Source of the DNA: Pseudomonadota bacterium | GTDB taxonomy: Bacteria; Pseudomonadota; Gammaproteobacteria; Steroidobacterales; MnTg04 | Reading direction: 5' to 3' | NCBI GenBank assembly: GCA_022572885.1 | Contig: JACZVC010000006.1 | Location: 1 to 64,000 of the forward strand | DNA length: 64,000 nt | In this document: positions 2,755 through 27,046 of the stretch, in pieces | Position numbering within the stretch: position 1 is the first letter of the stretch | Layout of the letters: each line of letters starts with the position of its first letter | Translations under genes and position numbers: made by a program | The notes under the pieces: generated by a model | What the model was told of the DNA's origin: nothing | Databases searched by the model: none | Seen by the model: the letters and a program-made list of their open reading frames with translations, nothing else

Positions 2755-3819
2755 GTGGAAGAATTAAACAAATTCCCGGGGCAGTTTTCGGTGCGAGTCA
2801 ACAAACAGGCAAGACAATTACCCGGTTCCAGTAGCGACACGCTGCTGCATGGCGATCGAATTCTCGGGGTATTGGTCAACCCACGCAGTCGCCGCAACAA
2901 GAAACACCTGGACGAAATCATCCAGGCTGTCAGTAACTGCTCCAGGACTCATTATCGGGTCGTTGATCAGCCGGGCGATATATCGAAAGTCCTGGCAGAG
3001 TTCGCGGCTGAGTCGGTCAACCTTTTGGCAATCAGCGGTGGAGACGGGACCGTATCTCGAATCCTGACGCATCTGTACGCAGAGCGGCCCTTCGAAACCA
3101 TGCCTGTCATTGCCATCCTGCGGGGCGGCACGGCGAATATGATCGCCGGAGACGTTGGCTCGCCTGGCAGCGTGGCGTCTGCTTTGCAACGCTTGCGAGT
3201 ATGGATAGAAAACGGCGCGGGGCAAATTCATTTACAAAGCCGGCCGGTGCTTCGAGTCCAGCCTGGCGAGGGCCAGCCCGATCATTACGGGATGTTCTTT
3301 GGCGCCGGAGCGGTTGTCCAGGGCATCGAATACACGAACGAGAATATTCATTCGCGCGGTTTGAAGAGTGAATTCAGCCTGGGCCTTGGGCTGGTGAGAT
3401 CCATGTGGGGGATCGCCCGCCAGGACCCCAGGTTCATCCGCCCCGTCCATATAGCCATCGGCGTCGATGGCAATACCGTTGCGCCCCCGGAAAGTATCGT
3501 TATGACGCTGGTCAGCGGTCTGGAGCGCCTGTTCCTGAACATGCATCCTTACTGGGGTGAAGACAATGGTCGACCATTGCATGTGACGACGATCCGCAGT
3601 CCGGCCACCCGATTGCTCAGAAACCTGCCGTCCTTGTTGCGCGGCAAACCAAATCGCTATTTGTCCGAGGATCAGGGGTACCTCAGTTATAATGTCGAGA
3701 GCATAAGTCTGGATTTTGACGGGCCGTTTACACTGGATGGAGAGATACTGCATGCCCACATTGGATCCGGGCCGGTCGAAATCAGCACAGCCGGCGAGCT
3801 CGTTTTTCTTCGAATCTAA
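2755..3819 (+). CDS. DAG-kinase-family lipid kinase (candidate ceramide kinase)
   Basis: The 354-residue protein has the signatures of the diacylglycerol kinase/YegS/sphingosine kinase family: VNPRS in the first beta strand (about residues 37-41), the nucleotide-binding loop SGGDGTV near residue 95, and RGGTANMIA near 122. The family phosphorylates a lipid hydroxyl with ATP on the cytoplasmic face of the inner membrane. The start is GTG at 2755. A Tam41-like nucleotidyltransferase and an acyltransferase follow in the same direction, and a full ceramide-synthesis gene set lies 17 kb downstream. A lipid kinase of this family (CpgB) makes ceramide 1-phosphate in Caulobacter, so ceramide is a plausible substrate. 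That is inference: diacylglycerol or an undecaprenyl lipid remain possible. Confidence 0.8.
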   Translation: MEELNKFPGQFSVRVNKQARQLPGSSSDTLLHGDRILGVLVNPRSRRNKKHLDEIIQAVSNCSRTHYRVVDQPGDISKVLAEFAAESVNLLAISGGDGTVSRILTHLYAERPFETMPVIAILRGGTANMIAGDVGSPGSVASALQRLRVWIENGAGQIHLQSRPVLRVQPGEGQPDHYGMFFGAGAVVQGIEYTNENIHSRGLKSEFSLGLGLVRSMWGIARQDPRFIRPVHIAIGVDGNTVAPPESIVMTLVSGLERLFLNMHPYWGEDNGRPLHVTTIRSPATRLLRNLPSLLRGKPNRYLSEDQGYLSYNVESISLDFDGPFTLDGEILHAHIGSGPVEISTAGELVFLRI

Positions 3820-3843
3820 GCCCGGCGAATCAGGGAAGCTTTG

Positions 3844-4767
3844 ATGAGTGCGCATGCTGAATCGTCAAGTTCTCGGGAACTGGATATCCTGGTCGCCTTT
3901 CTGCTTAGCCACCACGGCGGCGCGGTCAATGCGATTTTGTATTATGGGTCTTGCATGCGAAACAAGGACCCGTTTAATGGCATCGTTGATTTGTACCTGA
4001 TTACCGATGGTTACAGGGCCGTCTACTCGAGCAAATTTCACGCATTTTTGAATTGGGTCTTGCCGCCAAATGTTTTCTATAAAGAAATGGCTGCGGGAGA
4101 CCGAACTCTGCGCGTAAAGTACAACGTGCTATCGATTGCTGATTTGCAACGCGGCCTTTCCAGCCGGGCAATGCATTCCTATTTTTGGGGCCGGTTTACC
4201 CAACCTGTAGAGATTCTCTGGTGTCGTAACGAGGCGATCAGGAGCAAGACGGAAGCGTGTCTCGGCCTCGCCGCAAAAACATTCCTGGAGCGTGTCCTTC
4301 CCGCCGTAGCAGATTCCGGTTCAGTCAGTGATTTGTGGGCACAGGGATTGCGCCTGAGTTATGCAGCCGAGCTGCGTACTGAGGCGCCTGGTCGTGCGCA
4401 AGAATTGGTTGACTATGATTTGCAGCACTATGTTGAAATGAGCATGGCAGTAGCCTCATCGATCAGTTTCCCGCTGGAAATAACGGGAGCGGGAAAAACT
4501 GCCCGGTACACGGCGACAGTACCGGCATCCAGACGCTTTTTTGGACGGTTTGCATGGGTAGTTCGCAGGGTACAGGGCAAAATCTTGTCGGTGGCTCGCT
4601 TGCTGAAGGCGTTGTTTACATTCGATGGCGGTCTGGACTATGCCGCCTGGAAGCTTGAACGCCACACCGGGCAAGCAGTCGAGATTCCAGATCGGGTGAG
4701 GAAGTATCCCCTGATATTTGTCTGGGGCTTATTGTGGAAGCTTTACCGGCGGGGAATTATTCGTTGA
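3844..4767 (+). CDS. Tam41-like CTP:phospholipid cytidylyltransferase
   Basis: The protein (307 residues from the ATG at 3844) resembles mitochondrial phosphatidate cytidylyltransferase Tam41 in the order of its blocks. It has YYGSCMR followed by IVDLYLI (about residues 33-52), the nucleotidyltransferase glycine-serine and acidic motifs. LPPNVFY follows near 73, then VKYNVLSIADL with RGLSSRAMHSYFWGRFTQPV (about 92-125). Tam41 enzymes make CDP-diacylglycerol from phosphatidate and CTP and are evolutionarily separate from CdsA. Placed 24 bases after a lipid kinase, it could activate the phospholipid that kinase makes, for example ceramide phosphate to CDP-ceramide. The family call rests on motif order only; the substrate is inferred from neighbours. 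Confidence 0.6.
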   Translation: MSAHAESSSSRELDILVAFLLSHHGGAVNAILYYGSCMRNKDPFNGIVDLYLITDGYRAVYSSKFHAFLNWVLPPNVFYKEMAAGDRTLRVKYNVLSIADLQRGLSSRAMHSYFWGRFTQPVEILWCRNEAIRSKTEACLGLAAKTFLERVLPAVADSGSVSDLWAQGLRLSYAAELRTEAPGRAQELVDYDLQHYVEMSMAVASSISFPLEITGAGKTARYTATVPASRRFFGRFAWVVRRVQGKILSVARLLKALFTFDGGLDYAAWKLERHTGQAVEIPDRVRKYPLIFVWGLLWKLYRRGIIR

Positions 4768-4868: not shown

Positions 4869-5840
4869 ATGGCACAAAAACACTTTCTGATTCCGGCATG
4901 GCTACTTGACAGGCTACCAGCACTTCGCAAGTTTGGCTGGATGCTGGAGGCTGTCATTGCCAAAGCTCTGGTGGGATTGTTGCGAACCATGCCGCCGGAG
5001 CGTGCTGCCAGGCTAGCGAACTTTCTGTTTAGAAATCTAAAGCCAGTACTTCCCTTTAGCAATAAAATTCGCGGTAATCTGACAATCGCTTTTCCGGAAA
5101 AAGACAAACGGGAAATAGAAAAAATCACTCGTAGTGTTTGCGGCAATCTGGGCACCACCGTTGTGGAGCTGGTGTTGGCAGAGCGTATATGGGCAGAGCG
5201 AGATGAACGCATAGAATTTGTCATGGAAGACGGAATCGACCTTGGCAAGTACCGTGGCCGGCCGGCCGTTATGATAATCGGTCACATTGGCGCATGGCAG
5301 ATCGGCACTTTCGTTGCCGCACGGTACAACTTGCGAATTTCCTCCGTTTACGCTCCGGAGGAGAACCCTTATATGGAGAACTTCGTTCTCCGGCTGCGAT
5401 CGGCGTTGCCGTGCCGCTGGATTTCCCGTGACGGTTGCATGCGCGAGCTGACCAAAGAGCTCAAGCAAGGGAATATTGTGGGCCTGGTATCGGACACACG
5501 TCTCGACAGCGGCGAACTGGTTCCTTTTTTCGGCGTACCGGTGCCGACAAATACGACTGCCGCACGCCTTGCGCTGCGTCACCAGTGTGATTTTTTCCCG
5601 GTAAGGGCCGAGCGCCTGCCAGGGATGAGATTTCGTATCACAATTTGCCGGCCGATTCAGCCCGCTGATCCAAGCGCACCCACGGCTGAACAAGCGCGAC
5701 AAATGACCCAAAAAGTATTTGAGCACTTTGAGGAATGGATTCGCGAAGCCCCGGACCAATGGATGTGCTTTGGCCGGCGTTGGCCGCATGAGGCCTATAC
5801 CCATGGTTCGCCGGCAATAAAATATCGCGACCGACGGTAG
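4869..5840 (+). CDS. LpxL/HtrB-family lipid acyltransferase, variant motif
   Basis: The 323-residue protein has the fold signature of lipid A late acyltransferases: MIIGHIGAWQIG (about residues 134-145), a region of arginine/serine contacts, SDTRLDSGELVPFFGVPVP (about 204-222) and a DQWMCFGRRWP C-terminus, the usual 'W...RRW' ending. These inner-membrane enzymes transfer acyl chains onto lipid hydroxyls. The catalytic H-x4-E/D motif here reads H-I-G-A-W-Q, with glutamine where the acidic residue is normally found; the codons cac att ggc gca tgg cag confirm it. Such a change suggests altered chemistry or a non-lipid-A acceptor. It is the last plus-strand gene before convergent 5879-7216. Confidence 0.8.
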   Translation: MAQKHFLIPAWLLDRLPALRKFGWMLEAVIAKALVGLLRTMPPERAARLANFLFRNLKPVLPFSNKIRGNLTIAFPEKDKREIEKITRSVCGNLGTTVVELVLAERIWAERDERIEFVMEDGIDLGKYRGRPAVMIIGHIGAWQIGTFVAARYNLRISSVYAPEENPYMENFVLRLRSALPCRWISRDGCMRELTKELKQGNIVGLVSDTRLDSGELVPFFGVPVPTNTTAARLALRHQCDFFPVRAERLPGMRFRITICRPIQPADPSAPTAEQARQMTQKVFEHFEEWIREAPDQWMCFGRRWPHEAYTHGSPAIKYRDRR

Positions 5841-5878: not shown

Positions 5879-7216
5879 TTATTCGCGAGCTTGCTCAGGA
5901 TTCAGCGGTGCATCCCGGATACCCTTGGAAACGAGCAAGCTGATGCCAATCAGGGTTACTGCCGCCGAGAAACAGGCCGCAAAACCCGGGCCGAGCAAAC
6001 CGATGGATGGAGTGATCGCAACAAAAGCGATCACGTAAAGCACCGCGCTGATCGCATACAGCCATAGGATCTTGGTGGCAAGACCCATGGCGTAACCCCC
6101 CGTGCGAAGCATGAACACCATGAGTTCCAGGGTTGCCGCAAATAACAACAGCGTCATCAAGGGCGCCGCATCCGCATAGTCCGGCCCAAGAATGCTGGTT
6201 AACAAGAGGCGGCCGCCGAAAATTGAAGCGCTGATGAAAACGATCCCAAACACTCCCGACACAAGCACTATGCGTAACAGTATCGAATGAAAATTAACGG
6301 TATGCCGAGTCCACAGGCGCACCAGGTTCGGGAACAAGACCTGTTGCAGCAAAGCGCCCGGTTTGGACAGGATTTTGGTGGCTTCACGCGCAATGCGCAG
6401 CAAACCCGCGCCTGCCGCGCCGAGAATCGCGCCTGCAAGTAAGGTGGGCGCTTGTTTTTGCACGTTATCGAGGTTCGATTGCAGGTAAACGACAGATAGA
6501 AATGCCCGGAGGCCGGGGAATTCATCGCGCCAACCCTTGATGGACGGGCCTCGCAGCAGACTGCCGCCTACCCGTCGCGTGTATTCCATCCAGCCACGCA
6601 CGATCAGAAAAATGTTCCCAGCGATGGTTCCCAGCGCCAGCACGACAACGAACGACAGCACATCGGGAACTTGCGTTGAAACGACGAGGACGCCGATCAG
6701 CCGCAGCAACGGGCTGATCATCAGTTGTATGCCCAGCGCATCGAAGCGATCGAACAGCCGCAGTATCCCCTTGGGCGTGTCTTTCGCCGAGGTCAGCAAT
6801 ATGCTGCTGTAAATCAGCGCGCCAAAGATAAGGTCTTGGTCCCAGTCGAAGAGTAGTCCAGCCAATGGCACCGCCAGGATCGCTACGACGACAGACGCTC
6901 CGCTGGCTGCAATATCGATAAAAAGCGTTAATCGCAACAGCCGTCTTAGTGAATGGAGATTGTTGGCGTCGTGCACCGGGACACCGAACCGCACGACTGT
7001 TTCGTGCAATCTGAAATTGAACAGTCCACGAACCATCTGAACATAGGTCTGGAGAAGTACCAATTGGCCAAAGTTTTCGGGCGCAAGCGATCTGGCGAGC
7101 ACTGCGACGGTTATCAGCTCGAGCACAGCGGCTACGCCACGGCCGCGCAGCAATTTAACGAAATTCCTGCCGATGCGGCGAAGCAGAGATTGATCTTGAG
7201 TCAGCTCAGCATCCAT
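5879..7216 (-). CDS. Wzx-like oligosaccharide/lipid flippase
   Basis: The 445-residue, strongly hydrophobic protein has about 12 predicted membrane segments starting near residue 26 (AAVLELITVAVLARSL). The FGQLVLLQ stretch near 50 is typical of the polysaccharide-biosynthesis/MATE-like flippase superfamily (MurJ/Wzx/RfbX fold). Members move lipid-linked saccharides from the cytoplasmic to the periplasmic leaflet. It is transcribed in the same direction as lptG-lptF, 94 bases downstream of lptG. It could flip the glycolipid built by the glycosyltransferases at 11-15 kb. The substrate cannot be read from the sequence. Confidence 0.8.
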   Translation of the reverse strand: MDAELTQDQSLLRRIGRNFVKLLRGRGVAAVLELITVAVLARSLAPENFGQLVLLQTYVQMVRGLFNFRLHETVVRFGVPVHDANNLHSLRRLLRLTLFIDIAASGASVVVAILAVPLAGLLFDWDQDLIFGALIYSSILLTSAKDTPKGILRLFDRFDALGIQLMISPLLRLIGVLVVSTQVPDVLSFVVVLALGTIAGNIFLIVRGWMEYTRRVGGSLLRGPSIKGWRDEFPGLRAFLSVVYLQSNLDNVQKQAPTLLAGAILGAAGAGLLRIAREATKILSKPGALLQQVLFPNLVRLWTRHTVNFHSILLRIVLVSGVFGIVFISASIFGGRLLLTSILGPDYADAAPLMTLLLFAATLELMVFMLRTGGYAMGLATKILWLYAISAVLYVIAFVAITPSIGLLGPGFAACFSAAVTLIGISLLVSKGIRDAPLNPEQARE

Positions 7217-7310: not shown

Positions 7311-8378
7311 TCAACGGATTCGATGCAGGAATACCAGCGCCAGGAGCAATAGGAATATGTCCGGCGCCAGCGCCGCCGGTGCCGGGCTGAGATCAAACAA
7401 TATGGCAAGTTGCCCCGTCATTTGTTCCAAAAGGTAGAACAATATGCCAATACTCCCACCGATCGCGACTCGCTGGCCAGCGTGGACATGGCGGGCCGAT
7501 CCCAATAAAAAGGGTACGCCGAGCAGCGACATGGCCAACAAGCCAACCGGGATGCTCAGTTGTTGCCAAAAGATCACACGATAACGATGTGTATCGAGAT
7601 TATTCTGATCGAGCAAACGAATATATCGATAAAGAGCCAAAGGCGCCATGGCTTCAACCGGTACGATCAGTGCCGATGTCTGCCGTGCCGACAAAGAGCT
7701 TTGCCACAGCTTACTTGTCGAATGTTCTTCCTTGATTTCGGCAAGCGCGAGATCAGTTGTTTTCGCATCAATCAGTAACCATTGGCCATCATCCAATACT
7801 TCAACACTGGACGCCTGTATAAGTTCCCGCAAGTTATTGTTTTCGTCAAGTTCAAAGATTTCGACATCGCGCAATGCCCCTTGCTGAATCACCTTGCCTA
7901 TGCGGATGAACCGATCACCGCTGCGAGTCCAGAATTCAGTATCGGTACTCGCAATAATCGTCTGTGGCGTAGTCTTCGCTTTAATTCGTGCTGCGCTGAG
8001 CTCAAATTCTGGTACTACAAAGAACTGCACGAGCAGCACCAGGGCAATGATTGCAATAATTACCTCGACTAGCGGCCAGGCTATGCGTCCCACGGGAGGG
8101 CCAAGAGCGCGAATGATGACCAATTCCTGATGATTCGCCATTGCCCCCAAACCAATCAGGACCCCCAACAATGCGGTGACCGGAAGTAAATCCAGCATGA
8201 TTTTGGGGAGGGAATAACCGACTACCGTCAGCGCATCGATTGTTGTGAAGGCGCCTTTGCCAACGTTCTCTAATTCTTCAGCCAGGGTCAAAAAGCCAAA
8301 TAACGACAACAAGACAAAGAGCACTATCGCAGCGCCGCTCAGAAAGTTGCGTGCAATGTAACGATCAACGATCGGCAT
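7311..8378 (-). CDS. lptG: LPS-export-type ABC permease LptG
   Basis: The 355-residue protein begins IVDRYIARNFLSG, the usual LptG start, has three N-terminal membrane helices, a periplasmic beta-jellyroll (about residues 130-265) and three C-terminal helices. The ELVIIRALG stretch after TM2-3 is the coupling-helix region that contacts the LptB ATPase. LptF/LptG with LptB2 extract LPS from the inner membrane and push it onto the LptC-LptA-LptD bridge. The gene overlaps lptF by 14 bases. Its neighbours are a flippase, an LptA-like gene and lipid/glycan enzymes rather than pepA, the usual neighbour of lptFG in gammaproteobacteria. It may therefore be a second, dedicated copy. Confidence 0.9.
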   Translation of the reverse strand: MPIVDRYIARNFLSGAAIVLFVLLSLFGFLTLAEELENVGKGAFTTIDALTVVGYSLPKIMLDLLPVTALLGVLIGLGAMANHQELVIIRALGPPVGRIAWPLVEVIIAIIALVLLVQFFVVPEFELSAARIKAKTTPQTIIASTDTEFWTRSGDRFIRIGKVIQQGALRDVEIFELDENNNLRELIQASSVEVLDDGQWLLIDAKTTDLALAEIKEEHSTSKLWQSSLSARQTSALIVPVEAMAPLALYRYIRLLDQNNLDTHRYRVIFWQQLSIPVGLLAMSLLGVPFLLGSARHVHAGQRVAIGGSIGILFYLLEQMTGQLAILFDLSPAPAALAPDIFLLLLALVFLHRIR

Positions 8379-9450
8379 AAGTTTGCTTTGCCTTGTGGCG
8401 TCTTACCAGTATTCGCCAGGGGGCATAAAGAACAACTACCACCAGGGCAAACAGCCCCGGCACCCACCAGATCGAGGCTACCTTTTCCTGTTCTACCCAG
8501 GTCTTCGCCATGGTAAGAAAATTCAAATACGACGCATAAACCAGCAGCGCAATCAAGGTCTTTGCGTAGCGCCCTCGACGAGGGAGTGAGCGGCTGAGCG
8601 GAACGGCCGCCAGCGCAAGGAGCAGTGCCGACAGTGATGTCGACAACCGCCACTGGTATTCGGCTTTTTCTTTCGGATTCTGGTAATTTCGTAAATTCAG
8701 GGTTGACTCAGCTTTGACCTTATACCCAATGGGCTTGGGGTCGGCGATTCTCAAGAAAAGGGAAAGAGTTTTGAAGCGGCCCAGGACGTTCGGGCCATCG
8801 TCAACTGTCTTGTAAACCTGTGCATCGACCAACACAAGTCTATGATGGCCCTCTGTGGCAAACGGCTCAAAGAAACCAGTGGCGGACGAAGTAACCTGGA
8901 GACCCTGTTTATCGCGGCTGCGAATAAAAATTCCCTGCAACTGGTGACGGTTTTCCGACATACCCTGGATGAATATTGTCCGTCCTTCTTTGTCATCGAC
9001 GTAAAATTGGCCAGCCCGGATGCGTTCGAGTTCGGTGGATGCGGCAGCAGCTGCCCCTACTTCATATACCTGCCGGTAGGCCCAGGGTCGCGCTATTGTT
9101 GACAGCAGGCCGATAACGATGGCTATGGTGGCGGCGAAAATGATTATCGGCCGCAATAAGCGAAGCTCACCGATCCCGGCAGCTTGCAACGCGTACATCT
9201 CCGAGTCGCTGTAAAGACGGCCCATTCCGAGTATGACTCCCAGATACATGCCGAGGGGTAACAGCACTTCCAGAGCGATGATGGATTTGAGAAAGGTCAG
9301 ATAGGCAACTTCGCCGGGGTTGAACAGGCCGCTGGTGGCCTGAGCCAGGAAAACCGTCATGCTATAGGTAAGAAAGATAACCAGGAGTACGCTACTCACT
9401 CCGATAAAAGGTACACTGACTTCGCGCAACAGATAGCGATCGACCTGCAT
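8365..9450 (-). CDS. lptF: LPS-export-type ABC permease LptF
   Basis: The protein is 361 residues from the ATG at 9450, which gives the typical LptF beginning MQVDRYLLREV. Translation could extend 49 residues upstream, but that extension is not LptF-like and would overlap the divergent gene. Three N-terminal helices are followed by a periplasmic jellyroll and three C-terminal helices (about residues 270-345). YALQAAGIGELRLLRP is the cytoplasmic coupling segment. It pairs with LptG as the transmembrane part of the LptB2FG extractor. The first part of the coding strand is 93 bases from the divergent LptA-like gene, so both may share a control region. Confidence 0.9.
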   Translation of the reverse strand: MQVDRYLLREVSVPFIGVSSVLLVIFLTYSMTVFLAQATSGLFNPGEVAYLTFLKSIIALEVLLPLGMYLGVILGMGRLYSDSEMYALQAAGIGELRLLRPIIIFAATIAIVIGLLSTIARPWAYRQVYEVGAAAAASTELERIRAGQFYVDDKEGRTIFIQGMSENRHQLQGIFIRSRDKQGLQVTSSATGFFEPFATEGHHRLVLVDAQVYKTVDDGPNVLGRFKTLSLFLRIADPKPIGYKVKAESTLNLRNYQNPKEKAEYQWRLSTSLSALLLALAAVPLSRSLPRRGRYAKTLIALLVYASYLNFLTMAKTWVEQEKVASIWWVPGLFALVVVVLYAPWRILVRRHKAKQTYADR

Positions 9451-9543
9451 ATTCGTGTTCCTGCAGTTTATATTGATGGAGTCAGCGAGTTGGTCGATAT
9501 CGATGGTTGCAAAATCAACCCCTGAGTCGTATGTGATTATGTC

Positions 9544-10044
9544 ATGACGAAACTGAGAACTGTAGCGGTTGCTGTAATTGCCCTGTATGCAGGGCATAGC
9601 GCAGCGGCGAGCCTACTGAAAATATCCGGCGCGGATACGATTCTTGTTTCGGCAGATGAGGTCTGGGAGGAGCCGGAGCAGGATATTTTTCACTTCCGGG
9701 GAAATTTCGAAATAAGGACGCCACGATGGGCGGTAATGGCCGATGAGGCCACCGTATACGGGAGATTGGACGACCTGGAACGAATTGTGGCCGAGGGATC
9801 ACCCGTTCGATTCATCTTCAAGAGTTCTGACGCAGAAAATGGCTCGATTACCGAGGCCGAAGGCCAGAAACTTGAATACCTGAAAGAGGCCGGGGTGCTC
9901 CACCTGTCTGGCGGCGCGAAGATTAGCAGTGGTGGAAGCATTATGCGAAGCAGTGAAATCCGCTACGATCTTGAGCGAGACAAGCTCGAAGCAGGTGGCC
10001 CCGAGGGAGTCCGGTTAACCGCCAGGCCGGAGTCTACCCGCTGA
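9544..10044 (+). CDS. Periplasmic LptA/OstA-like lipid-bridge protein
   Basis: The 166-residue protein has a signal peptide (about residues 1-22, ending HSAAA) and an OstA-like beta-jellyroll. Signs of the fold are ISADTIL-like and VSADEVW strands, FRGNFEIRT, ADEATVYGRL and the ITEAEGQKLEYL/ISSGGSIMRSSEIRYDL strands. LptA proteins polymerise as a periplasmic bridge carrying LPS from LptC to LptD. It is divergent from lptF and isolated from lptB or lptC, which normally accompany lptA. This supports a role with the adjacent LptFG pair, possibly for a lipid other than standard LPS. It ends 7 bases before the convergent sulfotransferase. Confidence 0.75.
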   Translation: MTKLRTVAVAVIALYAGHSAAASLLKISGADTILVSADEVWEEPEQDIFHFRGNFEIRTPRWAVMADEATVYGRLDDLERIVAEGSPVRFIFKSSDAENGSITEAEGQKLEYLKEAGVLHLSGGAKISSGGSIMRSSEIRYDLERDKLEAGGPEGVRLTARPESTR

Positions 10045-10057
10045 TCCAAGATCAGCG
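10039..10057. promoter_or_regulatory. Perfect hairpin spanning two convergent stop codons
   Basis: CGCTGATC (10039-10046) and GATCAGCG (10050-10057) are perfect inverted arms with a CAA loop. Both stop codons, TGA at 10042-10044 (plus) and TGA at 10054-10052 (minus), lie inside the arms. No T-run follows on either strand, so this is not a classical terminator. It may protect or end both messages. Confidence 0.45.
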
Positions 10058-11041: not shown

Positions 11042-11751
11042 TTCTTTTTCTTGAGCCAATTGAGCGCACGCCTCCCTGCGTACAATAACGGCCGGTTGAT
11101 TACGATAATAAAAACCTTTCGCAGCTTGCCATCCGGACAAGTCAATTCACGGACTCCGTGCCAGGACCGATCGCGACGATGAAACAAGGTGCTGTAATTT
11201 CCAACGCACTCGCTGGAAATGATATTGTCAAAGTCCTCAAATGCCGGCGCTGAATTTGTATCGAAGCGGCCGTGGTCATCGAGTACCAGAGTCTGACCGC
11301 CCCAGCTCGGATCCCAATCGTCACGAGTATTGAGATAAAATATATGAGAACCCATCTTGTGAACCGCATCGCAATGCGGTGAAACCCCGCAGCCGCCCGG
11401 TGCATAGTGCCAGTGCATATTGAGACGGAACGACCTGCAACGGTACAGTCGTTTGATAAATCGACTGTATTCCGGGCCCCGCAATTCAGCAATGAAGTCT
11501 TTCCAGGCAGCAGGAATAAACTCAAGACCGGGTTGATATTCGAGCACGTAACGGTCATGCGAATATTGTCCGTGCGATCTTTTGCGGCCGAAACTGGGGT
11601 TGAGCAAGGATACATCGAGCTGGTTTTCCAGCAACCGTGAATAACCGTCATCGGTCAGCAAACCCGCCGGGTTGATGAAGGGATATGGTTTTGTATCGGC
11701 AAACGCATCGGCATCGATTGCGTCCAGCTTGTCAACATCGAGGTATTGCAT
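11038..11751 (-). CDS. 2OG-Fe(II) dioxygenase (prolyl-hydroxylase-like)
   Basis: The 237-residue protein carries the double-stranded beta-helix iron site: H-C-D in VSPHCDAVHK (about residues 127-129), the distal histidine in SWHGVREL (about 199) and a following arginine for 2-oxoglutarate. Such enzymes hydroxylate proteins, lipids or small molecules using oxygen and 2-oxoglutarate. It overlaps the upstream fusion gene and the downstream sulfotransferase by ATGA junctions. The three genes are therefore one translational unit, and this enzyme may create the hydroxyl that is then sulfated. The substrate is not visible from the sequence. Confidence 0.75.
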   Translation of the reverse strand: MQYLDVDKLDAIDADAFADTKPYPFINPAGLLTDDGYSRLLENQLDVSLLNPSFGRKRSHGQYSHDRYVLEYQPGLEFIPAAWKDFIAELRGPEYSRFIKRLYRCRSFRLNMHWHYAPGGCGVSPHCDAVHKMGSHIFYLNTRDDWDPSWGGQTLVLDDHGRFDTNSAPAFEDFDNIISSECVGNYSTLFHRRDRSWHGVRELTCPDGKLRKVFIIVINRPLLYAGRRALNWLKKKK

Positions 11752-16561: not shown

Positions 16562-16599
16562 GCTGGTTACTGTTTGAACAAATGCAAGAAGGGATCAGG

Positions 16600-19251: not shown

Positions 19252-19281
19252 CAATCAAATCGGCCAACATACAACAGTCTT

Positions 19282-19938
19282 ATGAATTTGCACGGTCTGG
19301 ACGCGATTATTTTCGATTTTGACGGGGTTCTGGTCGAATCCGTTGACATCAAGACGCAAGCCTTCGCAGCCCTTTACGCGGATCATGGCGAGAAGGTCGT
19401 GGCGCAGGTCGAGGATTATCATTTGCGTCACGGCGGAGAGTCCCGGTTTGAAAAATTTCGTTACTTCCAGACTGAAATACTGGGTGGGCCTCCACTGCAC
19501 GACCACGAAGTTTCGGATTTGGCAGCCTTATTTTCGAAACTCGTCATTGACCGGGTCGTTTCGGCGCCGATGGTGACAGGGGCGCAAGAATTCCTGGACT
19601 ACTGTCAAAATCGCCTGGCGCTGTATATTGTATCGGGAACCCCAACGTCCGAGCTGGATGAAATTCTACAGCGACGTAAATTGCGGCAGTATTTCGAAGG
19701 GATTAGAGGATCTCCTGGGACCAAGGCAGAACACATCTCCGAGCTGCTGGTCGAGTATGAAATAGATGCCAGCCGCTGCGTGATGATTGGCGATGCAATT
19801 GCGGACCACAAAGGCGCCATGTCCAACAGGCTGAAGTTTTTGGGACGGGTCGCTGAAAATGACAAAAACCCTTTTCCGGATGATGTAATAGCATTTGCAG
19901 ACTTTTCCTGTCTGCCGGAAAGGTGGTGCAAGGCGTGA
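19282..19938 (+). CDS. HAD-family phosphatase (beta-PGM-like)
   Basis: The 218-residue protein has the HAD nucleophile loop IIFDFDGVLVES (D12 and D14), motif II as IVSGTPTSEL and the acidic motif IV in CVMIGDAIADHKGA. Its cap is the small helical type of beta-phosphoglucomutase-like phosphatases. As the last gene of the sugar operon it may remove the phosphate from the ulosonic acid phosphate, the job done by KdsC in Kdo synthesis, though KdsC is a capless and different HAD subgroup. The role is inferred from position. Confidence 0.75.
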   Translation: MNLHGLDAIIFDFDGVLVESVDIKTQAFAALYADHGEKVVAQVEDYHLRHGGESRFEKFRYFQTEILGGPPLHDHEVSDLAALFSKLVIDRVVSAPMVTGAQEFLDYCQNRLALYIVSGTPTSELDEILQRRKLRQYFEGIRGSPGTKAEHISELLVEYEIDASRCVMIGDAIADHKGAMSNRLKFLGRVAENDKNPFPDDVIAFADFSCLPERWCKA

Positions 19939-20059: not shown

Positions 20060-20308
20060 ATGAGTATTGGTTACGACAAAGTACTTGCCGCGGCTGTTTC
20101 GATAGTCAGCCGATTGGTCAAGTCGGATACCGAGCTGAGTGCGGATACCGATTTGCAAGAGGATGTCGGCATGACGTCGCTGCAAGTGATGGACCTTGTT
20201 CTGGAAATTGAAGAGGAATTCGATATTTCCTTTCCGCTCAATCGCCTGCCGGACATTCGGACTATAAAAGACCTAGCTCAGGAAATCTTCGCAGTACTCG
20301 ATCAATAA
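20060..20308 (+). CDS. Acyl carrier protein of the sphingolipid locus
   Basis: The 82-residue protein folds like an ACP: helices about residues 5-20, 39-55 and 70-80, with the phosphopantetheine serine S40 in VGMTSLQVMDL. The usual D-S-L is T-S-L here. It is 16 bases from the serine palmitoyltransferase gene. In Caulobacter a dedicated ACP (AcpR) carries the acyl chain for ceramide synthesis and is loaded by a dedicated acyl-ACP synthetase; the acyl-AMP ligase at 25271-27046 would play that role here. It is distinct from housekeeping AcpP by its context and motif change. Confidence 0.85.
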   Translation: MSIGYDKVLAAAVSIVSRLVKSDTELSADTDLQEDVGMTSLQVMDLVLEIEEEFDISFPLNRLPDIRTIKDLAQEIFAVLDQ

Positions 20309-20324: not shown

Positions 20325-21500
20325 ATGAGTTTGTTCGAAAAATTCAGCCAATACCAGGAGATGCGTGACTTTTTCGAGAAACGAGGCACGATGCCTTTTG
20401 GCGCGGTAACTGAACGCAGTTTGTCTTCCACCGAAGCCATTGTGAATGGACATCGAGTCATCCTTGCAGGCACTAACAATTATTTGGGACTGAACTTCGA
20501 TCCGGAGGCAATAGCCGCGGCACAACGTGCAATCGAGGAAAGTGGTACAGGGACTACGGGTTCGCGCATGGCCAACGGAACCTTTGCCGGCCATGTAATG
20601 CTCGAACAGGAGTTGGCGAAATTCTTCAACACGAAGGCAGCGGTCCTTTTCTCGACAGGATATTCGGCGACCATGGGGATGAGCGCAACCCTGGCTGGGC
20701 CGGGGGAGGTGATTCTTCTCGATGCCGATTCTCACGCGAGTATTTATGACGGAGTTCGACTCAGTGGTGCGGAGATAATTCGTTTCCGCCATAACGACAC
20801 CGCCGATCTGGAGAAGCGATTGCGCCGGCTTGGGCAACGCGCTGAGAAAACACTCATAATCGTTGAGGGCATCTACAGCATGCTTGGCGATATAGCGCCG
20901 TTAGCGGAGATCGCCGCAATCAAGCGAAAGTACGGCGCCTACCTGATGGTCGATGAAGCGCATTCCCTGGGTGTCATGGGTGATGACGGCAGGGGGGCCG
21001 CCGCTGCTGCAGGGGTCGAAGACGATACGGATTTTATAGTCGGCACGTTCAGCAAGAGCCTTGCCAGCATCGGCGGTTATTGCGTGAGCAATCATCCAGA
21101 GCTAGAGCTTGTGCGATTTGCGACACGCTCCTATATATTCACGGCCTCGGCATCGCCATCCGTGGTTGCATCTGCGCGGGTGGCACTGAAGCTCATGCAA
21201 CAACGCCCGGAATTGCGAGAGCAGCTCTGGAAAAACGCACACCAGCTACACAAGCAACTGGCAGAACTGGGACTACAGGTTGATTCTCATGTCAGCCCTG
21301 TAATCGCCGTGAAGTCCGAAAGCACGGAGACCGCGATTCGCTGGTGGGAAGAACTTTTCGAAAAAGGAGTCTTCGTAAACCTGGTGATACCACCCGCGTC
21401 TCCATCGACTTACAGCCTGTTACGTTGTAGCGTAAGCGCCGCCCACAGCGCTGAGCAAATTCAGCAAATTGCCGACGCATTTTCTACACTTGAAGAATAG
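20325..21500 (+). CDS. spt: Serine palmitoyltransferase
   Basis: The 391-residue PLP enzyme belongs to the alpha-oxoamine synthases. The stacking histidine is in DADSHAS (H137), the PLP aspartate in VDEAHSLG (D210) and the PLP lysine in GTFSKSLASIGGY (K244). The TFSKS form of the last motif is typical of bacterial SPT; AONS and KBL usually carry GKA(F/L)G there. It condenses serine with a long acyl thioester to 3-ketosphinganine, the first step of sphingolipid synthesis, in the cytoplasm. The ACP gene directly upstream, and the ceramide synthase, reductase and ligase genes just beyond, support SPT over biotin-pathway AONS. Confidence 0.88.
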   Translation: MSLFEKFSQYQEMRDFFEKRGTMPFGAVTERSLSSTEAIVNGHRVILAGTNNYLGLNFDPEAIAAAQRAIEESGTGTTGSRMANGTFAGHVMLEQELAKFFNTKAAVLFSTGYSATMGMSATLAGPGEVILLDADSHASIYDGVRLSGAEIIRFRHNDTADLEKRLRRLGQRAEKTLIIVEGIYSMLGDIAPLAEIAAIKRKYGAYLMVDEAHSLGVMGDDGRGAAAAAGVEDDTDFIVGTFSKSLASIGGYCVSNHPELELVRFATRSYIFTASASPSVVASARVALKLMQQRPELREQLWKNAHQLHKQLAELGLQVDSHVSPVIAVKSESTETAIRWWEELFEKGVFVNLVIPPASPSTYSLLRCSVSAAHSAEQIQQIADAFSTLEE

Positions 21501-21518: not shown

Positions 21519-22337
21519 CTAAGGCGAGATATCCTGTCGCTTCAGAAACTGTTCCTGGACGGTGCGATAGTCCGCTATTGAATCGACATCGACGGCCGCA
21601 TCCGCGTAAGGCAGCACAACCGCACGCACACGCAGTTCCAGTTTTCGCGACAAAGCGTCCAGCGCATCCTCGAGCGTCAACGCACCGAAGAAATATTTGA
21701 GCACGTTTATCCACCCCAGGGCGCCAATCACCCGAAACGGGTTTTTACGCCGAGACTCGGTGCGCCGCCAGAAGTTTGCTGCTTCCCTGCCGGCGGGCGT
21801 CAAAAATGCGAACAAATTACAACCACATAATTCGCCATCGGAAAAACGCAACACTGTTTTTTCCAGCCCAGGAAATTCTTTCTGTACGAGAGAAAACCGT
21901 GCGAAACCAATAACAAGATCCGCATCCTGTTCGGCGCCCCGCGTACAAAATTCATCGACGATCTCCACCGATAGCAGCGGGTGGTCAGCCGTTGTCAATA
22001 AAACCTGTTGCTCTGGCGGCAGCATGCGCAAAGCTTCATAGGCACTGGTACTCGGGCTCGATTGCGGTGGCAGCCAGGATATATCGCCAGATTGAATTAA
22101 ATTGTTGATCTCGCGCTGATCTTTGAGTTTGTCCTTGCTCGGGCCGGATAGAAGAATTGTTTTTATGCCTGGCGATGTTGAAAGCGTTGCAAGCACGCGC
22201 AACAGCATGGGTTTGCCATCGATCTCGACGAATGCCTTGCAGCTGGCCCCGGCATGTTGTGCGAGCGCATCTTCGCCATCTCGCTGACCCGCCAAAACAA
22301 TGGCGGTCATATTCAGTTTTGGTTTATCGATCACCAT
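21519..22337 (-). CDS. MobA-like NTP-transferase domain protein
   Basis: The 272-residue protein begins with MTAIVLAGQRDGEDALA (from residue 10; an ATG at 22310 is an alternative start) and has GKPMLLRVLATL and LLTTADHPLL, the donor and metal-site pattern of nucleotidyltransferases. The family transfers an NMP to phosphate-bearing substrates, or can be a sugar nucleotidyltransferase. It is the last gene of the minus-strand ceramide operon, 7 bases after the ceramide synthase. Nucleotidyltransferase genes accompany ceramide genes elsewhere, so a head-group role is plausible; the function is not known. Confidence 0.7.
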   Translation of the reverse strand: MVIDKPKLNMTAIVLAGQRDGEDALAQHAGASCKAFVEIDGKPMLLRVLATLSTSPGIKTILLSGPSKDKLKDQREINNLIQSGDISWLPPQSSPSTSAYEALRMLPPEQQVLLTTADHPLLSVEIVDEFCTRGAEQDADLVIGFARFSLVQKEFPGLEKTVLRFSDGELCGCNLFAFLTPAGREAANFWRRTESRRKNPFRVIGALGWINVLKYFFGALTLEDALDALSRKLELRVRAVVLPYADAAVDVDSIADYRTVQEQFLKRQDISP

Positions 22338-22344: not shown

Positions 22345-23487
22345 CTACAAGGTTTTTTCGTAGATGCGATAACGCTTGTACGGGTCGCCGCCCATCGCTT
22401 CCAGAATTCCTTTCATTCCCTCGTTGTCGTCCAGGATCCAGGACATTTCAACGTTTTTAATGCCTCGCCGGACAAGTGCCTTGCGTGCCGCATCGATAAC
22501 CATAAATGCCAGTGTCGGTCCCAGCCGGGATTTTTGGTATTCTTTCCGGACGCCCATGAGTATGCAGCGGGCCGAATCCGGATATTTGATTTTCAGGCGC
22601 CACAACAGCTTCAACCACCCGAAGGGCAACAATCGCCCATTCAGGTCTTTGATGACCTGATTTATATCCGGGAACACGACGATCATCGCGACGGGCCGGC
22701 CATCGATTTCTGCAATCTGGATAAAATCATCGTCTACCAGGAGCGTAAGCAGCTCACCCATATCGGAAAATTCCGCTTCAGTAAACGGTGTGAACCCCCA
22801 GTTTTCAGACCAGGAATCGTTAAAAATATCACGAAGAATATCGAGGTCCTCCTGCAATTTTTTGCGTCTGAGTTCACGTATTTTAATTTTCCTGCCAAAC
22901 CCCCGTAGCAGCCTCTGCATTATGCCAGGGGCATCGAAATCCGGGTCAAGCTCATAGGCAAGCAGGTCTTTTGCCTTGCAATAGCCAGCGCCCTCTATCT
23001 GGCCGCCATAATATTTGGGAGCGTGCCCCATCATGATAAAGGGAGGCCTTTGAAAGCCATCAATCAATAAACCGCATTCCTCGTTGATGGACAGGTTGAA
23101 TGGGCCGCGGATTATTTTCATGCCCTGGTCCCGCAACCAGTTTTCTGCCGTCTCGAGCAACAACCGGAAAATCGCGGGGTCGTCCTCTGCTTCTATTAAT
23201 CCAAAAAAACCTGCGTCTTCACGTTGGGTGTCTCTATACAAATCGTCTATTTGCGCACTTATTCGTCCAACAATCATGGAGCCGAGACGCACAACCCACG
23301 CTTGCCACCGGGCGTGCTCAAAGAAAGGATTTTTTTCCGAAAATCTGTGCATCTGCTCGATCCAAAGCGGTGCGACCCAGTTTGGATCACCCGCATAAAT
23401 CCTCTGCGGGAATGTTATGAATTGCTTGAGTTGTTTTCGTCCGGATACGCGTTGGACGACCAAACCGGAACCAGATGGTTTTTCCAT
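22345..23487 (-). CDS. bcerS: Bacterial ceramide synthase (GNAT-like N-acyltransferase)
   Basis: The 380-residue protein matches the bacterial ceramide synthase family: IYAGDPNWVAPLWIEQ (residues about 30-45), NPFFEHARWQAWV, VGRISAQ, then GPFNLSINEECGLLIDGFQ (about 122-141), MMGHAPKYYGG and KAKDLLAYE. A GNAT-like acyltransferase domain with MGVRKEYQKSRLGPTLA lies near the C-terminus. bCerS N-acylates 3-ketosphinganine to 3-ketoceramide and is unrelated to eukaryotic CerS. A good ribosome site (AGGA, 8 bases) precedes the ATG. Its operon mates (fatty-acid hydroxylase, SDR, acyl-AMP ligase) complete the pathway. The family match is by remembered motifs. Confidence 0.8.
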   Translation of the reverse strand: MEKPSGSGLVVQRVSGRKQLKQFITFPQRIYAGDPNWVAPLWIEQMHRFSEKNPFFEHARWQAWVVRLGSMIVGRISAQIDDLYRDTQREDAGFFGLIEAEDDPAIFRLLLETAENWLRDQGMKIIRGPFNLSINEECGLLIDGFQRPPFIMMGHAPKYYGGQIEGAGYCKAKDLLAYELDPDFDAPGIMQRLLRGFGRKIKIRELRRKKLQEDLDILRDIFNDSWSENWGFTPFTEAEFSDMGELLTLLVDDDFIQIAEIDGRPVAMIVVFPDINQVIKDLNGRLLPFGWLKLLWRLKIKYPDSARCILMGVRKEYQKSRLGPTLAFMVIDAARKALVRRGIKNVEMSWILDDNEGMKGILEAMGGDPYKRYRIYEKTL

Positions 23488-23545: not shown

Positions 23546-24172
23546 TCAGTTCAAAGTGCCGAATACCCAGTCCCATAATGGCGAGCTAACACCGAATTTT
23601 TCTTTGTTTTCGGAATAATGATGTTTCAGATGACGGATTTTCAATGCATGCAACCATGGATGTCGCATTGAAAAATGATGTGTCGCGTAGTGCGTATAGT
23701 CATAAATCAAATAGCCAACTATAAAAAACGCACAAAAAGGTTCTACCCATGGCGCGGGTATCAGCAGCGAAAACAAAACCCACAGCATCGCCATCACGAT
23801 AACCGCGCCAGCCGGCGGCATGACCAGCCGGCTCTTGTCGGTCGGCACGTCATGATGGACGCCGTGAAACAGGTACACCACCCACTTGCCGGCAGCGCTC
23901 TTTGCGTGGAAGTGGAAGACGAATCGGTGTAACAGATACTCCGTCAGGGTCCAGACCAATAGACCGGGCAGAATCATTGCCGCGACTTGAATGGCAGACA
24001 ATTCGTGTACGGAAAAAGACCGCCACAACAAAAACCCGATCACCGGCGACCAGAACAAAAGAGGGATGATCGGGTGAACGTGGGTAAGTGACTCCATAAA
24101 GTCACTCTTGAAAAGTCTTACAGATTTCTTTTCCATGGGTAGTTTCTGCATCTCAGTTCGCAATAATAGCAT
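23546..24172 (-). CDS. FA2H/Scs7-like fatty-acid hydroxylase
   Basis: The 208-residue membrane protein (fewer if started at 24151 or 24136, where a better N-terminus with MEKKSVR begins) has the di-iron histidine boxes of the sterol desaturase/fatty acid hydroxylase superfamily: HRFVFHFH (about residues 92-99), HGVHHDVP (114-121), THYATHH and HLKHHY near the C-terminus. Four membrane helices lie between. FA2H and yeast Scs7 put the 2-hydroxyl on the N-acyl chain of ceramide. In the same operon as the ceramide synthase, a ceramide or acyl hydroxylase role is the simplest reading. Known minimal bacterial ceramide sets need no such enzyme. Confidence 0.8.
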   Translation of the reverse strand: MLLLRTEMQKLPMEKKSVRLFKSDFMESLTHVHPIIPLLFWSPVIGFLLWRSFSVHELSAIQVAAMILPGLLVWTLTEYLLHRFVFHFHAKSAAGKWVVYLFHGVHHDVPTDKSRLVMPPAGAVIVMAMLWVLFSLLIPAPWVEPFCAFFIVGYLIYDYTHYATHHFSMRHPWLHALKIRHLKHHYSENKEKFGVSSPLWDWVFGTLN

Positions 24173-24283: not shown

Positions 24284-25255
24284 TCACTCCGGGCCGATAT
24301 CTCCCTGACGATGGCCGGGCCAGTCGGGAGTCGCCCGCAACCCTTCAGGCAATTGTACATTTGGGCGCCAGTTGACGGCACGCTGGAATGAAGTGCCTTC
24401 ACATACCCAGTCGTGATGACGCAGCTCGCGCAGTTTTTCCGGGGTCAGCATCGGAGCAGCGCCGAAAAGAGTGCCGATGCGGCTGTTTGCCCACGCCGGC
24501 ACATCAAGCAGCCACGATGGCGCCCGGACGACGCGGACTCTCCGCTTGCACAGTTCGCCCACGACCTTGCCGACATCATGCCAGTCATAGCCTTTGGCGT
24601 GGCCGTCATCAATGGCAAATATCTCCTCCGCAACGAGGTCAGCGCCCAGCCATGCAATGACGGCGGAGCTCAGATCGTCTATATACAACATCGAAAATCG
24701 AGCGCCAGGCAACCCGGGGGTCAGCGCCAGCCCACGTGCCATCAGCCGAAACACCGGCAACAGTTCCCGGTCCCCGGGGCCATAGACGGCTGGTGGTCGC
24801 AAAACAGTCCAGGCGATGCCACTGCCTTCTTTTTTCAGTACCTGCTCCGCGCGATGCTTGCTGGCGGCGTAAAAAGACAATTGCGGCTCGCGCGCTGCAA
24901 GCGACGAGATAAAAAGCAGCCTTGGACTGGTCGTGCCGGCCTTGATGGCGTGCAGCAAGTTCCTGGTCCCCGCTACGTTAACCCGATCGAATTGAGCTTG
25001 AGTCGCACCCCGGACGGCGCCGGCACAATGTATGACGGCATCGGCGCCACTGACTAGACGCTGCAAGCTATCCGGGTCGGCCAGGTCGCCGTGTATGATT
25101 TCGGCATCACTGAAGGTGCGCGCAGAGGCCTTGCGAGGATTGCGAACCAGCACGCGAACGGAATAATTGCTGGCAATCAGCCGGCCGTAAATCGCATGAC
25201 CTATAAACCCGGTCGCGCCTGTGACGGCGATTACCTTTTTCAACTTGGGGTCCAC
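24284..25255 (-). CDS. cerR: SDR-type ceramide reductase
   Basis: The 323-residue extended SDR starts at GTG 25255 and has the NAD(P) loop TGATGFIG (about residues 12-19), GDLADPDSL, SSLAA and the catalytic YAASK near 130, and RPPAVYGPG. In Caulobacter a protein of this kind (CerR) reduces 3-ketoceramide after acylation. It is 15 bases downstream of the acyl-AMP ligase and upstream of the hydroxylase and bCerS genes on the same strand, which supports this over a sugar epimerase role. Sequence alone would also allow a different NAD(P) reductase. Confidence 0.75.
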   Translation of the reverse strand: MDPKLKKVIAVTGATGFIGHAIYGRLIASNYSVRVLVRNPRKASARTFSDAEIIHGDLADPDSLQRLVSGADAVIHCAGAVRGATQAQFDRVNVAGTRNLLHAIKAGTTSPRLLFISSLAAREPQLSFYAASKHRAEQVLKKEGSGIAWTVLRPPAVYGPGDRELLPVFRLMARGLALTPGLPGARFSMLYIDDLSSAVIAWLGADLVAEEIFAIDDGHAKGYDWHDVGKVVGELCKRRVRVVRAPSWLLDVPAWANSRIGTLFGAAPMLTPEKLRELRHHDWVCEGTSFQRAVNWRPNVQLPEGLRATPDWPGHRQGDIGPE

Positions 25256-25270
25256 AAACGAGCGCTTTGC

Positions 25271-27046
25271 TTAAGCGATTGATTTCCGCAGTTCGTTCTC
25301 ATCCGCTATTTCAACCAGGCGGTCAATATCATGTGCCGCCATGAAATTCAGACGAGCTTTGGATCGCGATAGTTTGCCGGACGATGTGCGCGGCAGTTTC
25401 CGTGTCGAAACCAGGGTGATATAACAGTCGATACCAAGCTCGCTGCGAATAATACTGGTCAGGCGAGCAATCAGTTCAGATCGTTTGCCTGGATCGGCTT
25501 GCCGGCACTGAATCTTGAGTACGCAGATCTCGCCGCCGTTCGGATTGGGCACCGAAAACGCGAGCGAGCCGCCAACCCGCACTTCGGGCTGTTGTTCGGC
25601 CAGATACTCAATATCCTGGGGCCAGATATTCTTGCCATTGATGATAATCAGATCTTTTTCTCGCCCGGTGATAACGAGATTCGAATCTACCTGGTAACCC
25701 AGGTCGCCGGTATCGAGCCAGCCATCTTCGGACAATACAGCCTTCGTGGCGTCGGGATCGTTGAAATAGCCGGACATCACGCTGGGCCCGCGCAGAAAAA
25801 TCGTACCGCTGCGCCGGTCCGGGAGCTTGTTCCCTGCCTTGTCCCGGATTTCGATTTCGAAATCAGGAAGCGGGTAGCCGCAGGCTACAAATCTCTTGGC
25901 CCTGGACTGATCCGGGTGCGAAGAGTCGATGGGTAATGCTTCCTGATATTCAGAAAGGTGGTTGGCATCGATACAATCGGTCACCAGGCCGCGGGATAAC
26001 GGCGCGAAGGTAATTGCCAGCGTGCACTCGGCCATTCCATAACAGGCCAGGAATGCTGAATCTTTAAAACCGGCCGGCTCCAGAGCGTTGGCGAATTCTT
26101 CCAGAGTTTCTGCGCGAATCATTTCGGCGCCAACTCCGGCCATTCTCCAGTTACTCAGATCGTACTTTTCCGCATCGTTGGCACGCAGGCGTCGCACGCA
26201 CAAATCATAGCCAAAGGACGGGCCGAACGATATCGTTGCCTTGGTCAATGTCATCAGGTTGAGCCATTGCCTTGGGCGCACGGCAAAATCGCGCGTATCC
26301 AGATAATCGACCGACGTCTGCGCGGTAATGGGAACCAGCATCAGGCCGACCATGCCCATGTCGTGATAGAAAGGAAGCCACGAAAAGAACCGGTCCCCGG
26401 GTTGAATCTTGATCCCATGGTTGATGATGCCGGTCAGATTGCTCATCACGGTTTTTTGCCTGATCACGACGCCTCGCGGAAAGCGCGTGCTTCCGGACGT
26501 GAACTGCAGGTAAGCAATATCGTCTGCTTCAATGATCGGCAGCTTGGTTTCCCCATCGGGAAGTTTTTCGAAATCGCCTGGATCGCCGACAAACTTGATG
26601 TCGTATCCTTCGACTGCTTCCAGTAGAAAGGAGATATAACCACTGGATGCCATGGCGACCGATATCTTGCTGTTGCTTATCAGTCTGGCAAGTTGCTGGA
26701 CGTAAGCGTCATGGCCACCCAGGGTGAGTGTTGCCGGAAATGCAACCGGCACCAACCCGGCATATTGACAGGCAAAGAAAAAAATCAGGAAGTCTGGATT
26801 GGTTTCGGCAACCAATCCCATCCGGTCTCCTTTTTGAAGACCGAGCCCCAGCAATTTTCGGGCTAGCTTGCGGGCCTCGATTCGCAATTCGCTATATGGC
26901 AAGCGGGCGTATTGTTCGCCTCGGCCGGTAAAGAAGTTGGTGCCAGTTTTTCCCAGGGCGGCGTAATCCAGCGCATCGACCAGGGTCGGAAAGTCTCCCG
27001 GTCGAAATGCTAAATCATGCTTGGTCGGCGTTATTTCAAACGTCAA
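25271..27046 (-). CDS. Fatty acyl-AMP ligase / acyl-ACP synthetase
   Basis: The 591-residue protein has the AMP-binding motif LQFTSGSTRFPRGVV (about residues 172-186), the A5 motif YGMAECTLAI, the A7 motif DTGDLG and the A8/A10 regions REKDLIIINGKN and TSSGKLSRS. The MAECTL form and the N-terminal architecture fit fatty acyl-AMP ligases (FAAL), which pass acyl-AMP to an ACP. It would load the ACP at 20060-20308 with a fatty acid for bCerS or SPT, like the acyl-ACP synthetase required for Caulobacter ceramide. The start is TTG at 27046 with GGGAGAGG upstream; no better ATG exists. Confidence 0.85.
   Translation of the reverse strand: MTFEITPTKHDLAFRPGDFPTLVDALDYAALGKTGTNFFTGRGEQYARLPYSELRIEARKLARKLLGLGLQKGDRMGLVAETNPDFLIFFFACQYAGLVPVAFPATLTLGGHDAYVQQLARLISNSKISVAMASSGYISFLLEAVEGYDIKFVGDPGDFEKLPDGETKLPIIEADDIAYLQFTSGSTRFPRGVVIRQKTVMSNLTGIINHGIKIQPGDRFFSWLPFYHDMGMVGLMLVPITAQTSVDYLDTRDFAVRPRQWLNLMTLTKATISFGPSFGYDLCVRRLRANDAEKYDLSNWRMAGVGAEMIRAETLEEFANALEPAGFKDSAFLACYGMAECTLAITFAPLSRGLVTDCIDANHLSEYQEALPIDSSHPDQSRAKRFVACGYPLPDFEIEIRDKAGNKLPDRRSGTIFLRGPSVMSGYFNDPDATKAVLSEDGWLDTGDLGYQVDSNLVITGREKDLIIINGKNIWPQDIEYLAEQQPEVRVGGSLAFSVPNPNGGEICVLKIQCRQADPGKRSELIARLTSIIRSELGIDCYITLVSTRKLPRTSSGKLSRSKARLNFMAAHDIDRLVEIADENELRKSIA

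Follow-up and report, generated by a model that had tools for sequence, protein, structure and literature searches.

The DNA analysed here, referred to as the window, is a stretch of 64,000 nucleotides from the genome of a Pseudomonadota bacterium of the order Steroidobacterales (assembly GCA_022572885.1, contig JACZVC010000006.1, positions 1–64,000). Profile searches of the window delimit an island of sphingolipid and surface sugar genes at positions 2755–27046, with a lipid kinase at one end and an acyl-AMP ligase at the other. The original prediction described this region as one island for building, decorating and exporting a surface glycolipid, in which ceramide replaces or accompanies lipid A as the anchor of a lipopolysaccharide (LPS)-like molecule. 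All gene classes named there were recovered within the island by Pfam and NCBIfam matches, and four features came in addition: an acyl carrier protein (ACP) of the AcpR type, an ELM1 domain, a 2-oxoglutarate (2OG) oxygenase and an SCS7-like ceramide hydroxylase. An Rfam search of the window gave no match. Coordinates are given below with the strand (+ or −), and other genomes, contigs and loci are denoted by our own G, C and L numbers.

The ceramide set aasR–cerR–acpR–spt–cerS is complete. It comprises a serine palmitoyltransferase (SPT; 20325–21500, +; NF047599, 595 bits against a cut-off of 500), the AcpR-type ACP of 82 amino acids (20060–20308, +; ACP models, E 1e-10), which is conserved in relatives, an AasR-type fatty acyl-AMP/ACP ligase (25271–27046, −; NF006624, 773 bits), a putative CerR-type reductase of the short-chain dehydrogenase/reductase (SDR) type (24284–25255, −; Pfam Epimerase, 8e-27) and a putative CerS-type ceramide synthase of the GNAT family (22345–23487, −; PF00583, 6e-6), whose linkage to SPT clusters is kept; cerR and cerS are assigned by conserved linkage and family. 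A MobA/IspD-like nucleotidyltransferase gene (ntp; 21519–22337, −; PF12804, 6e-13), which may have the role of CC_1153, adjoins the CerS-type gene in most clusters read, and the ceramide fatty-acid 2-hydroxylase (23546–24172, −; PF04116, 6e-19) has yeast SCS7 as best solved relative (4zr1, E 9e-28). At the other end of the island a ceramide-kinase-like lipid kinase of the DAGK family (2755–3819, +; DAGK_cat, 2.6e-14) probably takes the role of CpgB and a Tam41-like CTP-dependent cytidylyltransferase (3841–4767, +; Tam41_Mmp37, 2.4e-5) that of CpgC, with CDP-ceramide as the predicted product. The Tam41-like protein scores 24.3 bits against a cut-off of 24; nonetheless its gene is kept in all relatives, its motif YGS.LR...D[LF][YH] is retained there, and the lipid kinase gene adjoins tam41 both in the island and in Nitrosomonadaceae.

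Next to these genes lie an LpxL-like acyltransferase (4869–5840, +; Pfam, 2.1e-35), a Wzx-type flippase (5879–7216, −; Polysacc_synt, 9e-10) and a second LptG and LptF (LptG2, 7311–8378, −; TIGR04408, 322 bits; LptF2, 8365–9597, −; TIGR04407, 291 bits, true start probably near amino acid 50), which both score above the equivalog cut-offs and belong to an SPT-linked clade. LptA2 (9544–10044, +; PF03968, 2.2e-8) is a periplasmic LptA/LptD_N domain protein with a signal-peptide-like N-terminus. The LpxL-like protein does not have the catalytic motif HX4(D/E) and reads HX4Q in all four island copies, and SPT-linked homologs in G073, G049 and G087 keep HX4E, including the LpxC-less G087.

The head group genes comprise a sulfotransferase (10052–11140, −; PF13469, 1e-6), a 2OG-Fe(II) oxygenase-like protein (11038–11751, −; PF13640, 2.6e-5, slightly below the cut-off) and a large glycosyltransferase (11751–14243, −; PF06258, 1.1e-45) with a GT8-like N-terminal part, a middle part that by eye appears methyltransferase-like and an ELM1 C-terminal part of the GT-B type. 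They are followed by gt14 (14311–15576, −), a GT-B fold enzyme (model pLDDT 85) and candidate sugar-acid transferase. Divergent from gt14 runs an operon at 15806–19938 which encodes a putative CMP-keto-sugar-acid synthetase paralogous to KdsB (KdsB2; 15806–16561, +; NF009905, 300 bits), a pyruvate aldolase of the HpaI/GarL type (16495–17391, +; PF03328, 2e-40; true start probably near 16597), a D-2-hydroxyacid dehydrogenase (17207–18331, +; PF02826, 4e-61; true start probably near 17381), an NAD-dependent sugar epimerase/dehydratase of the SDR type (18292–19251, +; PF01370, 5e-44) and a haloacid dehalogenase (HAD) phosphatase (19282–19938, +; PF00702, 1.5e-13).

The island is inherited as a single block, as the check for co-inheritance in related genomes revealed. 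The same genes occur in the same order in three other genomes, two congeners and one member of a different family, and therefore the grouping is not due to chance. Congener G009 has the full island gene for gene and G036 has it as far as its contig reaches, with identities of mostly 72–96%; G116 from the other family carries it at 55–83% protein identity on a contig that does not cover the kinase. Within the order, SPT is patchy (14/147 genomes), and SPT genomes at a greater distance retain the ceramide core, the Tam41-like gene and ntp, have LptFG2 in some cases and lack the sugar-acid cassette.

ELM1 proteins (PF06258) were found in 12 of the 14 SPT-positive and in none of the 133 SPT-negative genomes of the order, an association with Fisher values of 7e-16 and, when collapsed by genus, 7e-9, both of which overstate the evidence as genomes are not independent samples. 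The two SPT-positive genomes without ELM1, G008 and G022, carry CpgA instead. ELM1 genes adjoin SPT in six genomes (G003, G049, G073, G079, G087 and G093). The trio of ELM1/GT8 fusion, 2OG oxygenase and SCS7-like hydroxylase lies within the ceramide island in G009 and recurs outside the island in the host (G000:C34, L146:9155–13128) and in G116 (C20, L147:6301–10187). A Caulobacter control genome carries ELM1, too. In structural models the ELM1 domain (pLDDT 80; matches include the lipid glycosyltransferases MurG and MGD1 at Z about 15) and gt14 share the GT-B fold, which also covers sugar 2-epimerases; searches against PDB sequence profiles brought up no useful relative of either. Distribution and model point to ELM1 proteins acting as sphingolipid glycosyltransferases in this order, and no function for bacterial ELM1 was found in the open-access literature.

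The product of the cassette can be narrowed down by the motifs of its enzymes. KdsB2 has the fold and the nucleotide motifs of KdsB, scores above the NF009905 cut-off and keeps QGDEP and the N-terminal motif. The motif RHIGxYAYR, which binds the substrate 3-deoxy-D-manno-octulosonic acid (Kdo) in KdsB (PMC7717453), is replaced by a QVCxIxFR-like sequence, with H to Q, G to C, Y to I and Y to F in 64/64 readable copies; the E–Q pair has D in place of E in 65/65 copies and M in place of Q in 64/65. The active-site His, Arg, Glu and Asp positions of the HpaI-type aldolase align with 1dxe. Because the Kdo motif is altered and an HpaI aldolase, a 2-hydroxyacid dehydrogenase, an SDR and a phosphatase lie beside kdsB2, we infer that the cassette likely yields a 3-deoxy-2-keto sugar acid that is activated by CMP and differs from Kdo. 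CMP-Kdo itself was judged the less likely product and rejected in view of the motif change and of a separate canonical KdsB elsewhere in the host. The gt14 model is closest to UDP-GlcNAc 2-epimerases (Z 25, root-mean-square deviation 3.6, 341 aligned residues), so that gt14 would be either a transferase or an epimerase; that it is a WaaA homolog is unsupported, as no WaaA model matches it.

A scan of GTDB genomes with gt14, in which the best 80 of 140 relatives were covered and which leaves room for cassettes in SPT-negative genomes, gave at least 79 loci, five in island-bearing metagenome-assembled genomes of Gammaproteobacteria and the rest in Nitrosomonadaceae or similar-looking contigs. 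Among the matches listed, about 60 loci have gt14 divergent from kdsB2–hpaI–hacid–sdr–had in unchanged order. In a sample of the class (n=369) gt14 was present only in the host and in one member of the Nitrosomonadaceae. In genomes of the Nitrosospira/Nitrosovibrio type the cassette directly adjoins cerS–ntp–lptF2–lptG2–dagk–tam41. The cassette proteins are 47–66% identical to those of Nitrosomonadaceae as compared to 31–38% for LptFG2, kinase and Tam41, which would fit a transfer of the cassette or merely different rates. No description of a cassette combining KdsB and an HpaI aldolase was found in open-access papers, and this group of six genes for a keto-sugar acid, in which the KdsB paralog has a changed Kdo-binding motif throughout, is new here.

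The host genome (96% complete) carries, outside the island, LpxC, an MsbA–LpxK–KdsB operon, one WaaA and a canonical LptFG pair. The domain PF04413 of WaaA is absent from the island, its sole match in the genome being on contig C27. Since all these genes are retained, ceramide accompanies lipid A in this host, and of the two options of the original prediction the replacement of lipid A is rejected here. The pair in the island differs from this canonical one and is linked to SPT genes. In the phylogenetic tree canonical pairs stand apart from the SPT-linked pairs of this order (support 98/96 for LptG, weaker for LptF with 81/53), and LptG2 of the island groups with LptG of Nitrosomonadaceae (94/84). 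Exactly two LptF/G genes occur in each of 16 SPT-negative genomes tested, and four in 8 of the 12 genomes with both SPT and LpxC. Nitrosomonadaceae have one pair in 20 of 22 genomes, with one extra gene in the other two, and in the loci read (L143, L144, L145) it sits in the arrangement cerS–ntp–lptF–lptG–(cpgA)–dagk–tam41. Thus, the copy number of LptFG largely tracks the number of predicted anchors. Copy number, phylogeny and the LpxC-less relatives support that LptF2G2 is dedicated to the ceramide lipid, which it would transport to the outer membrane.

Two SPT-positive lineages have no detected LpxC. Among Nitrosomonadaceae SPT is present in 80/80 and the SDR of the cassette in 79/80 good genomes, LpxC was found in none of 26 genomes tested (among G466 and G511–G590), and the one complete genome tested has no WaaA. 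As LpxC is missing, ordinary lipid A cannot be what carries the cassette sugar in this family. A report from 2010 described Nitrosomonas europaea as devoid of lpx genes and ascribed this to genome reduction, with no link to sphingolipids (PMC3087551); in contrast, we find the loss of LpxC in 26/26 members of the family, together with SPT in nearly all genomes and, in essence, a single LptFG pair, which in those loci that were read belongs to the ceramide cluster. The second lineage is genus g38 of the same order as the host. Neither LpxC nor WaaA was found in G087 and G093 (94–95% complete), which have SPT and three ELM1 genes; their LptF and LptG fall into the canonical clade with LptG adjoining SPT (loci L035, L036 and L141), and would thus be a reused canonical pair. 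In G015 from a sister genus both LpxC and WaaA are present, and SPT gave no match. This looks like a natural replacement of LPS in G087 and G093, and for these two lineages the proposal that ceramide replaces lipid A looks right.

Taken as a whole, the model of a ceramide-anchored LPS-like molecule is supported, and the tests for co-inheritance and for a second lptFG have left it standing. We consider it probable that the island builds a second outer-membrane glycolipid beside ordinary LPS, which is anchored by ceramide, bears a sugar acid, is probably sulfated and is exported by dedicated Lpt proteins. By homology, AasR, AcpR, SPT, CerR and the GNAT ceramide synthase would form ceramide and the SCS7-like enzyme 2-hydroxy-ceramide. 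The kinase, like CpgB of Caulobacter, would yield ceramide-1-phosphate, from which the Tam41-like enzyme may produce CDP-ceramide as an activated handle. The kdsB2–hpaI–hacid–sdr–had cassette would supply the CMP-activated 3-deoxy-2-keto sugar acid used by the ELM1/GT8 protein and gt14 to assemble the head group, and the 2OG oxygenase and the sulfotransferase might modify it. The Wzx-type flippase would turn the glycolipid over, and LptF2G2 with LptA2 and presumably a shared LptB would extract it towards the outer membrane. Genome linkage suggests that sugar acid and sulfate are located on the ceramide. More tentatively, and with a little less than an even chance of being right as a whole, we suggest that Nitrosomonadaceae and g38 have replaced LPS by a ceramide-anchored glycolipid, in Nitrosomonadaceae with a new CMP-activated keto-sugar acid and export by the sole LptFG, that the window holds the same system beside LPS, and that ELM1 proteins are an unrecognised family of sphingolipid glycosyltransferases.

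The core idea of a ceramide lipid with LptC2/F2/G2 and a flippase has already been published for Caulobacter (PMC11324152), whose phosphosphingolipid cluster in C. crescentus (CC_1168–CC_1152) makes CPG and CPG2 (PMC11324152, PMC12275187, PMC10331486). Common to both are the five ceramide genes, the ceramide kinase, the CpgC resembling Tam41 or CDP-DAG synthase, ntp beside CerS, the flippase, the second LptF/LptG and a ceramide lipid alongside LPS. The differences are an LptA-type protein in place of LptC2 and the addition of the kdsB2 cassette, the ELM1/GT8 transferase, gt14, the sulfotransferase, the 2OG oxygenase, the SCS7-like hydroxylase and the LpxL-like gene. By analogy, the island appears to follow the anchor and export logic of Caulobacter with a different head group. 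The likeness to the Kdo pathway (KdsA/B/C, WaaA) would lie in the activation of an acidic 3-deoxy sugar by a CMP-transferase of the KdsB fold and in the phosphatase. Unlike that pathway, the island uses an HpaI-type aldolase and not KdsA, the substrate motif of KdsB is replaced, gt14 is unmatched by WaaA models and the host keeps canonical KdsB and WaaA separately. In bacteria of the Sphingomonas type a ceramide glycolipid forms part of the outer leaflet, and in some of them LPS is lacking; here, on the contrary, LPS is retained, and sugar-making and Lpt genes share one island.

Given the similarity to Caulobacter, the locus could be an ordinary CPG/CPG2 locus of the Caulobacter type, with the sugar genes as neighbours that decorate ordinary LPS or capsule. 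In its favour, the locus agrees with the Caulobacter set (PMC11324152) in the ceramide genes, the kinase, the Tam41-like gene, ntp, the flippase and LptF2/G2, the pair of ceramide kinase and Tam41-like CpgC that marks CPG2 loci is present, and the host does make lipid A according to its genes. Nevertheless, we regard this explanation as unlikely: CPG2 synthesis in Caulobacter needs cpgA, and the search for this CDP-alcohol phosphotransferase had no match in the host, its congeners G009 and G036 or G116 but did find it in G066, G008, G022 and G466, so that the island is set apart from CPG2 systems. In addition, the cassette adjoins ceramide and LptFG genes also in a family without detected LpxC, and ELM1 tracks SPT. 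No phosphoglycerate cytidylyltransferase CpgD was seen among the island genes, to which this search was confined. It is still less probable that the sugar acid becomes part of a capsule or exopolysaccharide and LptF2G2 exports simple phosphoceramides only. The resemblance of gt14 and GT2 genes to polysaccharide genes, a gene like Wzy or O-antigen ligase beside one cassette (L057) and the distance of some Nitrosomonas cassettes from SPT speak for it; yet the cassette lies inside the ceramide island here, its adjacency to CerS, LptFG and kinase is conserved in Nitrosospira, and the island showed no genes for capsule export of the ABC or Wza type. Finally, LptF2G2 has the fold and the NCBIfam models of the LPS proteins and could be a redundant second copy that serves the export of lipid A-LPS in certain conditions. 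This is very improbable, as the pair belongs to a separate clade tied to SPT clusters, the 16 SPT-negative genomes have no second pair and the LpxC-less Nitrosomonadaceae keep their one pair beside ceramide genes.

Several points weigh against a ceramide-anchored glycolipid with its own export proteins. The case is built from gene content, linkage, co-occurrence, phylogeny and motif changes, and the Fisher values for ELM1 and SPT are too favourable, as noted above. Many Nitrosomonas cassettes lie 13–110 kb from SPT and some much further, the cassette sugar could go to capsule or protein, and gt14 in its model resembles NDP-sugar 2-epimerases as much as transferases. Moreover, G049, G073 and G079 have SPT and LpxC with one LptFG pair and G003 has three fragments; therefore SPT-positive genomes can do without a dedicated pair. 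Instead of one, G049 has an MsbA-like ABC exporter in its SPT region, which also contains sulfotransferases.

Beyond the Caulobacter core, the cassette beside ceramide and LptFG genes in Nitrosomonadaceae, the association of ELM1 with SPT and the relation between LptFG and anchor number are new. The route of bacterial sphingolipids to the outer membrane has been called unknown (PMC11324152). As LptFG largely tracks the predicted anchors and a lone pair lies beside ceramide genes where LpxC is missing, this question becomes testable in culturable Nitrosomonas and Nitrosospira. The findings also offer an explanation for how ammonia-oxidising bacteria of central environmental importance can do without the genes for lipid A, point to a new acidic sugar and give bacterial ELM1 proteins a testable role.

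Some further observations concern gene variants and the borders of the island. In one locus of Nitrosomonadaceae (L057:1035–3083) a fusion of a fatty-acid desaturase/hydroxylase and a DAGK-type kinase lies next to tam41. In another (L063:12449–13150) a histidine phosphatase similar to phosphoglycerate mutase adjoins tam41–dagk–cpgA and might supply 2-phosphoglycerate for a head group of the CPG type. An open reading frame at 27141–27443 was considered as ACP and rejected, the actual ACP being the one at 20060–20308; it is small, 79% identical over its full length in G009 and without family match. The genes flanking the island on both sides (98–1909 and 27628–29904) code for regulatory-looking TPR-containing proteins, which are related to each other and share the N-terminus ELKRRNV(L/F)RV, and they are possibly recombination borders. 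The G+C content is 0.50–0.57 on the island side of the window (1–34000) and mostly 0.57–0.63 past 34 kb, a difference that may hint at a foreign origin.

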